From Sphingosinicella ginsenosidimutans (GTDB lineage Bacteria > Pseudomonadota > Alphaproteobacteria > Sphingomonadales > Sphingomonadaceae), in contig NZ_VOQQ01000001.1 of NCBI RefSeq assembly GCF_007995055.1, forward strand, positions 2,277,001-2,341,000: DNA of 64,000 nucleotides. Direction: 5' to 3'. Positions 33,585-37,198 of the stretch are shown piece by piece (the first letter of the stretch is position 1; each line of letters begins with the position of its first letter). The position numbers and the translations under genes are program-made. The notes beneath the pieces are model-generated. The model worked only from the letters and a program-made list of their open reading frames with translations. It did not search any database and had not been told where the DNA came from.

Positions 33585-33872
33585 ATGTCCGTCGATACCG
33601 CAACCGTTCGCCATATCGCGAAGCTCGCCCGCATCGCCGTCACCGACGCCGAGGTCGAATCGCTCGCGCCCGAGCTTTCCAACATTCTCGGCTGGATCGA
33701 GCAACTCGGGGAGGTCGATGTCTCCGGGGTCGCGCCGATGACGGCGGTCATCCCCAACAGGCTGCGCCTGCGCGAGGACGAAGTGACCGATGGCGGCATC
33801 CGCGAGGACGTGCTGAAGAACGCGCCGGTCGCCGAACACGGCTTCTTCGCGGTGCCGAAGGTGATCGAATGA
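33585..33872 (+). CDS. gatC: Aspartyl/glutamyl-tRNA amidotransferase subunit C
   Basis: Small subunit of 95 residues that stabilises the GatA-GatB complex making Gln-tRNA and Asn-tRNA by transamidation. Family phrases are [55 protein letters not shown] and [20 protein letters not shown]. The ATG at 33585 gives the standard length. Its stop overlaps the gatA start (ATGA). Confidence 0.96.
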
Positions 33873-35350
33873 GCGCGCTGACCGATCTCGGCATCGCGGC
33901 GATCCGCGACGGGGTGAAGGCCGGCGACTTTTCCGCCCGCGACGTGGCCGAGGCGTTCGTCGCCGCGGTCGAGAAGGGGCGGGGGCTCAACGCCTTCGTG
34001 GCCGAGACTCCGGACCATGCGCTCGCCGCCGCCGATGCCGCCGATGCCGCGCGCGCGTCGGGCGACCTGAAGCCGCTGTCGGGCGTGCCGCTCGGCATCA
34101 AGGACCTGTTCGCGACGAAGGGCGTCCAGACCACCGCCGGCAGCCGCATCCTCGAAGGCTTCACGCCGACCTATGAGAGCACGGTCAGCGGCAATCTGTT
34201 CGCCGCCGGCGCCGGGATGCTCGGCAAATTGAACATGGACGAGTTCGCGATGGGCTCGTCCAACGAGACCAGCGGCTATGGGCCGGTGATCTCGCCCTGG
34301 CGGCGAAGCGACGGCGGCAATGCCGCGCTCGCGCCGGGCGGAAGCTCGGGCGGCTCATCGGCCGCAGTCTCGGCGCGGCTCTGCCCCGGCGCGACCGGCA
34401 CCGACACCGGCGGATCGATCCGCCAGCCCGCCGCCTTCACCGGCATCACCGGCATCAAGCCGACCTATGGCCGCTGCTCGCGCTGGGGCGTGGTCGCCTT
34501 CGCGAGCTCGCTCGACCAGGCCGGGCCGATGGCGCGCGACGTGCGCGACTGCGCGATTATGCTCGAGGCGATGGCCGGCTTCGATCCGAAGGATTCGACC
34601 TCGCTCGACCTGCCCGTACCGGCCTGGGAGGCGACGCTGTCGCCCGATCTCAGGGGCAAAAGGGTCGGCATCCCGAGGGAATATCGGATCGACGGCGTCC
34701 CCGCCGAGATCGACGCGGTGTGGGACCAGGGCATCGAATGGCTGCGCGACGCCGGCGCCGAGATCGTCGAGGTCTCGCTGCCGCACACGAAATATGCGCT
34801 GCCGACCTATTACATCATCGCGCCGGCCGAGGCCTCGTCCAACCTCGCCCGCTATGACGGCGTTCGCTACGGCAAGCGCGTCGCGCCTGAGCAGGGCGGC
34901 CTCAACGACATGTACGAGGCGACCCGCGCCGCCGGCTTCGGCGCCGAGGTGAAGCGCCGGATCATGATCGGCACCTATGTGCTTTCCGCCGGCTTCTACG
35001 ACGCCTATTTCAACCAGGCGCAGAAGGTGCGCGCGCTGATCGCCCGCGATTTCGAGGCGGTGTGGGGGCAGTGCGACGTGATCCTCACCCCGACCGCGCC
35101 GAGCGCCGCCTTCGGCCTTGGCGAGAAGACCGCCGATCCGCTCGCCATGTACCTGAACGATGTCTTCGCGGTCCCGGCAAGCCTTGCCGGTCTGCCCGCC
35201 ATGTCGGTGCCGGCCGGGCTCGACGGGCAGGGCCTGCCGCTCGGCCTCCAGATCGTCGGCAAGGCCTTGGACGAACAGGGCGTGCTCGACGCCGGGCTGG
35301 CGATCGAGCAGCGGGCGGGGTTCACGGCGCGGCCGGAGGCGTGGTGGTGA
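33869..35350 (+). CDS. gatA: Glutamyl-tRNA(Gln) amidotransferase subunit A
   Basis: Amidase of 493 residues that releases ammonia from glutamine for transamidation. The Ser-cisSer-Lys machinery is visible: Lys in [14 protein letters not shown], the glycine/serine region [20 protein letters not shown], and [16 protein letters not shown] (cis-Ser and catalytic Ser). The ATG overlaps gatC; the stop overlaps a GTG that starts the inserted membrane-protein gene, so gatA and gatB are no longer adjacent. Confidence 0.97.
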
Positions 35351-35742
35351 CGAATAATGTCACTTCCATCGGGGTTTTTGAGCGCGATCTGCAGTACGTG
35401 AATTTTGCATTCGGAACGGCGTTCGGCGGCTATATCGGCGTCATTTTGGCGATAAGAGAACTTTCGGATTCAAAGGTAATTCTAATGATGCTGCTTGCGG
35501 CAGCAGTTAGTTCTTGGCTGATATACTTCCACAGGGTGGCAATAGACGTATTAAGAGACGGATACAAATCTCACGCTTGGTCGGTAACGTTATTTCTCAT
35601 TATCACTGCTGGGCTTCAGCTCATGTCAGCTGAAATTCAAGAATCTTATCTTGTGGCATTTAGAATTTTTCAAGCATGGTCTTACGTGCTTCTCTTCTGT
35701 CTGGGCACAAATCTGCTTTTTATGAGGCGCTTAAATGGCTGA
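35347..35742 (+). CDS. AT-rich four-helix membrane protein nested between gatA and gatB
   Basis: Unrecognised protein of 131 residues with four predicted membrane segments: about residues 17-38 ([19 protein letters not shown]), 44-66 ([18 protein letters not shown]), 78-98 ([16 protein letters not shown]) and 103-127 ([21 protein letters not shown]). It starts with a GTG overlapping the gatA stop (GTGA) and ends eight bases inside gatB. By hand count it has about 45% G+C, against clearly more than 60% on both sides, and uses codons such as TTA, ATA and AGA that neighbours avoid. This suggests foreign origin, yet it is perfectly fitted to the operon's translational coupling. No conserved catalytic motif is seen. 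Function unknown. Confidence 0.72.
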
Positions 35743-37198
35743 TTACCGCATCCAGGGCGCCACGGGCGAATGGGAGGTCGTGATCGGCCTCGAGGTCCAC
35801 GCGCAGGTCACGTCCGAGGCCAAGCTCTTCTCGGGCGCGGCGACCGCCTTCGGGGCGGAGCCGAACACGCAGGTGAGCCTGATCGACGCGGCGATGCCCG
35901 GGATGCTGCCCGTGCCGAACGTCGAGTGCATCCGCCAGGCGGTTCGCACCGGCATGGCGATCGACGCCAAGATCAACGCCTGGTCGCGCTTCGACCGGAA
36001 GAATTATTTCTACGCCGATCTGCCGCAGGGCTACCAGATCAGCCAGCTCTTCCACCCGCTCGTCGGGGAGGGGGAGATCAGCGTCGATCTCGAGGACGGC
36101 ACCACCAAGACGATCGGCATCGAGCGAATCCATGTCGAGCAGGATGCGGGCAAGCTGATGCACGATCAGCATCCCGATTATTCCTATGTCGATCTCAACC
36201 GCTCCGGCGTCGCGCTGATGGAGATCGTGTCCAAGGCGGACATGCGTTCTCCAGAAGAAGCAGGAGCTTATGTCCGCAAGCTGAGATCGATCCTTCGCTA
36301 TGTCGGGTCGTGCGACGGCAATATGGAGCAGGGATCGATGCGCGCCGACGTCAATGTCAGCGTGCGCCGCCCCGGCGCGCCGTTCGGCACGCGGACCGAG
36401 ACCAAGAACGTCAATTCGGTGCGCTTCATCATGGCGGTGGTCGAGCATGAGGCGCGCCGCCAGGTCGACCTGATCGAGGAGGGCGGCACGGTCGTCCAGG
36501 AAACGCGGCTCTACGACCCCGACCGGGGCGAGACGCGGTCGCTGCGGTCCAAGGAGGACGCGCACGATTACCGCTATTTCCCCGATCCGGACCTGCTGCC
36601 GCTGGAGCTCAGCGAGGATTTCCTCGCCGAGTGCCGGGCGAGCCTGCCCGAACTGCCCGACGCCAAGCGCGCGCGCTACGAGAGCCAGCTCGGCCTGTCG
36701 GCCTATAATGCCGCGGTGCTCACCGCCGAGGTGGAGACCGCGCGCTGGTTCGAGGCGCTGCTCGCCGAGCTTGGCGAGGATCAGGCGCAGCGCGCGTCCA
36801 ACTGGGTCATCTCCGACCTGTTCGGGGCGCTGAACAAACTTGGCAAGGGGATCGAGGACAGCCCGGTAAGTCCTTCCGACGCGGCGCAATTGCTCCGGCT
36901 CGTCGCCGACGGCACATTGTCCGGCACGCTCGCCAAGCAGGTGTTCGAGATCATGCTCGAAACCGGCGATGCGCCGGACAGGATCGTCGAGGAACGCGGC
37001 CTCAGGCAGACCAGCGACACCGGCGCGATCGAGGCGGTGATCGCCGAGGTGCTGGCCGCGAACCAGGACAAGGTCGCCGAATATCGCGGCGGCAAGGACA
37101 AGCTGTTCGGCTTCTTCGTCGGCCAGACGATGAAGGCGATGGCCGGCAAGGCGAACCCGCAGGTCGTCAACGAGCTGCTCAAGAAGGCGCTCGGCTGA
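35735..37198 (+). CDS. gatB: Aspartyl/glutamyl-tRNA amidotransferase subunit B
   Basis: Kinase/transamidase subunit of 487 residues that activates Glu-tRNA(Gln) or Asp-tRNA(Asn). Family phrases are [83 protein letters not shown] and the C-terminal YqeY-like tail ([27 protein letters not shown]). The start lies inside the end of the nested membrane-protein gene, so gatB translation may depend on reinitiation after it. Confidence 0.97.

Follow-up and report, generated by a model that had tools for sequence, protein, structure and literature searches.

The junction between gatA and gatB in the Sphingomonadaceae is a gene-capture site. It is probably constrained by translational coupling, with the AT-rich gene inside the gatCAB operon of the window (the whole 64,000-nt stretch of Sphingosinicella ginsenosidimutans DNA analysed here) as one of the captures. 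This gene overlaps its neighbours by 4 nt and 8 nt, so that the geometry of a coupled pair is present on both of its sides (Table 1). Its GTG (35347-35349) and the TGA stop of gatA (35348-35350) share the 4-nt overlap GTGA; a second GTG, in frame with the gene, is found at 35344 and the end of gatA as a whole reads GGAGG-CGTGGTG-GTGA. The frame has 131 open codons, and the chance of an ORF bridging the 384-nt gap between gatA and gatB was about 0.001 in 1000 dinucleotide shuffles.

Table 1. Features of the gat operon around the inserted gene (positions in the window)
Feature	Position	Strand	Remarks
gatC	33585..33872	+	overlaps gatA by 4 nt (ATGA)
gatA	33869..35350	+	C-terminus PEAWW-stop
GGAGG, Shine-Dalgarno-like, inside gatA 3' end	35335..35339	+	7 nt upstream of GTG 35347; duplex energy for this region -9.5 kcal/mol
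AT-rich gene, predicted four-helix membrane protein, 131 aa	35347..35742	+	start inside gatA stop; stop 8 nt inside gatB
GAGG inside 3' end of inserted gene	35724..35727	+	7 nt upstream of gatB ATG; duplex energy for this region -5.6 kcal/mol
gatB	35735..37198	+	start ATGGCTGA; TGA stop of the insert at +8

The original prediction described an AT-rich gene for a four-helix membrane protein, wedged between GC-rich genes with start-stop overlaps at both ends, and all of this was borne out. The G+C content of the gene is 44.2% (0.48, 0.37 and 0.47 at the three codon positions) against 70.7% for gatA and 65.7% for gatB (third positions 0.91 and 0.88). The protein has four hydrophobic stretches and its predicted model consists of four helices (mean pLDDT 85.2, pTM 0.73), pointing to a location in the membrane. 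A foreign origin had also been proposed. A single-sequence search of 5.8 billion proteins returned only the window protein itself and relatives at 70% and 65%, and the one match among 397 Sphingomonadaceae genomes was the window's own. Within the genus, 31 loci from 26 genomes gave matches only to two copies of the window's own sequence, so the gene is private to this genome among the genus genomes compared; it is absent from all 23 of these loci that are parsed junctions of other genomes. Foreign composition and absence from close relatives thus agree with the proposal, and the gene was presumably acquired laterally. The closest relative in the genus by gatB (90% identity) carries an unrelated membrane gene (L003:905-1501), about 200 codons long and AT-rich as well (39% G+C), with the same start-stop geometry as the window gene.

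Inserts of more than 15 nt are present in 79 of 131 parsed gatA-gatB junctions of the Sphingomonadaceae, the window's own included; the other 52 have gaps of 15 nt or less. Of the 25 loci parsed outside the family, 20 have gatA and gatB no more than 15 nt apart. A quick tree of 159 gat loci implies at least 32 changes between presence and absence of an insert. The inserts span 32-2679 nt at 39-74% G+C. Their contents are unrelated to one another and include genes for four-helix membrane proteins, PIN-domain (VapC-like) proteins, Trypco2, acyltransferases and glycosyltransferases, as well as palindromic repeats with no evident product, which we take to be REP-like. VapC-like genes were read by us in 12 survey loci, as were their VapB partners. 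A PIN domain was found in all seven of the 12 that were searched and also in the L155 protein, which lies outside the survey set (8/8, E 2.2e-15 to 1.8e-8). The match to Trypco2 is above the cut-off in L005 (E 2.4e-5) and below it in L061 (E 0.022). UPF0114 is found in L004, an acyltransferase gene in L039 and a family 2 glycosyltransferase gene in L035. The short inserts of L007, L095, L091, L057 and L065 encode peptides of 39-63 residues that have a hydrophobic or amphipathic stretch and, in most cases, a basic (charged) tail behind it; the four of these that were searched had no Pfam match. In L154 and L155, from the same genomes as L180 and L179, a VapB/VapC-like pair lies between a four-helix gene and gatB.

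Nine of the 10 unparsed, non-fragment loci were re-read with up to 20 kb of sequence, together with one more genome of the family. In seven of these 10 extended loci gatA lies about 2.2-5.5 kb upstream of gatB behind an island, and in three no gatA was found within about 20 kb of gatB. The islands of L212, L214, L215, L216, L218 and L220 are about 3-5.5 kb long and have some genes on the opposite strand; by our own reading most of their genes resemble glycosyltransferase, acyltransferase and other membrane-protein genes.

Most inserts up to the size of a gene are crossed by one frame. We called an insert bridged when a single ORF has its start codon at the gatA stop and ends within 15 nt of the gatB start. 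By this definition 47 of 57 inserts of 16-650 nt are bridged and 10 are not, where shuffles expect 16.1 bridged. The excess is seen at 16-200 nt (31/37, 14.2 expected) and at 201-650 nt (16/20, 1.5 expected), and when one insert is kept per sequence cluster (32/39, 9.5 expected). With the GTG at -7 as the only start allowed, 30 of 37 shorter and 15 of 20 longer inserts are bridged. Removal of one or two bases lowers these counts to 7 and 13 for the shorter inserts and to 0 and 2 for the longer ones, and reversal of the inserts leaves 19/37 and 3/20; palindromic repeats stay bridged when reversed. Above 650 nt a single ORF from the gatA GTG bridges only 2 of 22 inserts. In 11 of 12 loci with a VapC-like gene, the end of that gene falls at +1, +4 or +8 relative to the gatB start.

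The gatC-gatA junction behaves in the same way. Inserts of more than 15 nt occur in 20 of 89 survey junctions, none longer than 200 nt, and 18 of the 20 are bridged (8.4 expected; one per cluster, 10/11 against 4.9). These inserts are 17-151 nt long, many of them repeat-like, and their bridging ORFs have short overlaps such as ATGA and TAATG.

Bridging could be a by-product, if captured genes overlap in operon style anyway and short repeats just happen to be open frames in GC-rich DNA and go untranslated. Overlaps of -4 and -8 are indeed common across bacteria, as a review describes (PMC12548453), and chance bridging of short inserts is already high at 14.2 of 37, given GC-rich DNA and the stops built into the gatB start. 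However, the excess holds up against shuffled, clustered and frame-shifted controls and is seen again at gatC-gatA, and ordinary co-directional gaps of 16-200 nt (from the window and the stretches of eight relatives, with simple gene calls of our own) show no such excess (5/45 bridged, 2.8 expected). We therefore regard a by-product as very unlikely.

The reading that we prefer, capture under coupling, would work as follows. The 3' end of gatA carries a Shine-Dalgarno sequence and, usually, a GTG that lies within or next to the gatA stop, and in insert-free genomes gatB starts at this signal. Foreign DNA landing at the junction would take the signal over, so that gatB would be best served when ribosomes translate the whole of the new DNA and terminate on the gatB start, where they could reinitiate. 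If gatB is served in this way, most of the short or gene-sized inserts that persist would form a single bridging ORF, be it a genuine gene or repeat DNA. Coupling would then be the selective cause of the bridging frames.

The signals around gatB are consistent with this. Insert-free gaps run from -4 to +11 nt, which places the Shine-Dalgarno stretch of gatB in the gatA end or nearly so. A Shine-Dalgarno energy of -4 or lower is found before gatB in 52 of 52 junctions lacking an insert and in 35 of 79 with one, the background being 201 of 655 random places inside gatA; the gatB start contains a stop at +8 in 8/52 and 37/79, respectively, and the two Fisher tests on these contrasts carry no correction for kinship. 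As an insert separates gatB from the Shine-Dalgarno sequence in the gatA end, gatB would rely on coupling, and its translation may depend on the inserted ORF; against this, the gatB of the window retains a fair Shine-Dalgarno sequence (-5.6). Reporter work found reinitiation almost lost with spacers of about 20 nt (PMC10666635), whereas one study covered in a review saw no effect on coupling up to +25 nt (PMC12548453). GatA and GatB also fit the finding that the members of a coupled pair are often subunits of the same complex (PMC10666635). Coupling is not indispensable everywhere, to judge from the islands between gatA and gatB (about 2-5.5 kb, in part with oppositely oriented genes) and from the loci with no gatA within about 20 kb.

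The window gene had been suggested to be possibly an old insertion kept for the sake of coupling. This fits the pattern, since inserts here keep the handover from gatA to gatB. The 23 genus relatives examined lack a GC-adapted homologue, which would have made this an ordinary ancestral gene, whereas more distant genera have such homologues at exactly the same junction, and the window gene is therefore not a one-off insertion. The proteins of L059, L060, L112, L123 and L099 and the window protein all have hydrophobic sequence for four helices and a motif N-x3-G-x5-Y-x-G. The motif lies in helix 1 and a W in helix 4, and the window protein conforms in both alignment and model. A family profile search, which scored 7997 candidates, found 140 proteins; among the 120 listed, the named ones are mostly from Sphingomonas and Sphingobium. 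By profile, 9 of 397 Sphingomonadaceae genomes are carriers, five of which had contributed to the profile (G029, G112, G179 and G263 had not, and the G179 match spans 47 positions only), and the gene lies between gatA and gatB in all nine. The same holds at 24 of 24 loci in a scan of named genomes, at least three of which are also among the nine carriers, and in 21 of the 24 a 406-nt insert runs from the gatA stop to +4 of gatB. At L178 the gene begins 414 nt past the gatA stop, so something else precedes it within the insert. In what was searched, the four-helix family is restricted to the gatA-gatB junction, and its presence changes at least 11 times on the quick tree of 159 gat loci.

Profile scores place the window protein as a remote, AT-rich member of this family. 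With a Sphingomonas-only profile it scores 6.6 bits, below the best of its own shuffles (8.4), while P0003 and P0004 score 14.0 and 11.9 bits against 11.6 for the best of 1963 decoys. When the profile is extended by L059, L099, L156 and L157, leaving the window clade out, the window protein, P0003 and P0004 score 19.9, 18.9 and 20.6 bits, and the highest score among 3507 decoys is 17.3. Between the two clades, a profile-profile comparison aligned 24 residues only.

It could be argued that an ancestral gatA-X-gatB gene descended vertically, with numerous losses and a drift towards low G+C in the window lineage. All located members of the family are at the same place, and the Sphingomonas branch is GC-adapted (GC3 0.74-0.90) and under purifying selection, with dN/dS of 0.08-0.39 across ten pairs, two of which are the same sequences under two locus names. 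However, the gene is absent from the 23 genus relatives examined, and only 9 of 397 genomes of the family carry it. Additionally, the window protein is only 18-35% identical to the other junction members while gatA is 77-84% identical, and the divergent, sporadic members (window, L059, L099, L156 and L157) all have low GC3 (0.41-0.56). Vertical descent is thus improbable in our judgement.

Searches of Pfam, NCBIfam, PADLOC and PHROGs returned no significant match for the window protein (P0001); PADLOC has no model for it at E<=1, and the SMODS-associating 4TM effector (S_4TM, PF18159) is not among its Pfam matches. A structure search with the predicted model returned generic helical bundles only, none of them informative. 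No described family was found for the four-helix proteins among the Pfam matches of family members and the other family searches. A GtrA-like identity was rejected: only two columns aligned with the L216 protein, which we take to be GtrA, and GtrA is not among the Pfam matches of 99 family members.

On another account, function drives the hotspot: conflict or surface-variation genes collect there, with the four-helix protein acting in defence, as a toxin or in exclusion under the shelter of the essential operon. The other occupants lend themselves to this, namely the PIN-domain VapC-like genes and Trypco2 in L005 (L061 being below the cut-off), the acyltransferase, the family 2 glycosyltransferase and the larger islands with similar-looking genes, and L154 and L155 hold four-helix and VapC-like genes in one junction. 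L099, a divergent family member, weakly matches the PADLOC '4TM effector' (E 0.031) and Pfam S_4TM (E 0.74, 9.5 bits, under the cut-off of 26.9). Against it, the window protein itself gave only the null results above, and repeats with no evident product occupy the site too. We consider this account unlikely. The proposal that the window gene is of a selfish or immunity type accordingly found hints only in other occupants of the site, and an accessory membrane effector of conflict type is a best guess for the four-helix protein that we hold with low confidence.

The capture reading might be taken further, although we regard the extension as doubtful. The gat operon would be a natural platform for gene birth as well as gene capture: the gatA end would give a ribosome site and a start codon, the gatB start would often close off the other frames with stop codons, and landing DNA, even repeats, would be turned into translated ORFs by selection for coupled synthesis of GatA and GatB. 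The four-helix gene would be addicted to its place, as its loss would uncouple gatB.

The junction may offer a route by which repeat DNA becomes a translated gene. It is also a natural experiment on the strength of selection for coupled subunit synthesis, with many insertions in one operon scored by the passage of ribosomes.

It is already known that the gatA-gatB junction takes genes, in Moraxella and in Caulobacter and its relatives, and that repeats can insert with a coupled ORF. A literature search of an open library, at listing level, on Sphingomonas gatA-gatB, gatCAB insertions, operon ORFans and intercistronic coupling ORFs found no Sphingomonadaceae report. New here are the size and diversity of the capture site within one family, the statistical case for inserts with a passing frame at two junctions of the gat operon, and a membrane protein family tied to the gatA-gatB site for which no described family was found. 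In Moraxella the bro beta-lactamase gene lies at the same junction and has reportedly spread by horizontal transfer (PMC4073114, PMC8406222); those are other bacteria, however, with one recurrent gene of known function that alters the GatA C-terminus rather than many kinds of insert. The genes X, Y and Z that interrupt gatCAB in Caulobacter, Brevundimonas and Phenylobacterium are likewise variable genes, gained and lost between gatA and gatB in Alphaproteobacteria (PMC4221894). We liken them to the Sphingomonadaceae inserts by position; the published passage mentions neither overlap geometry nor coupling and places gatA and gatB of strain K31 under different promoters (PMC4221894). Termination-reinitiation pairs share NTGA and -8 overlaps, membership of one complex and a strong dependence on distance (PMC10666635; cf. 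PMC6728339), but the published passages describe no interrupted pair restored by a bridging ORF (PMC10666635). Closest to the short inserts are the mycobacterial MIRU elements, inserted short repeats that land at the start codon of a gene with an ORF coupled to that gene at -4 nt (PMC12548453). The MIRUs are a single repeat family found at various genes, whereas in the Sphingomonadaceae many unrelated sequences have entered the junctions of one operon.
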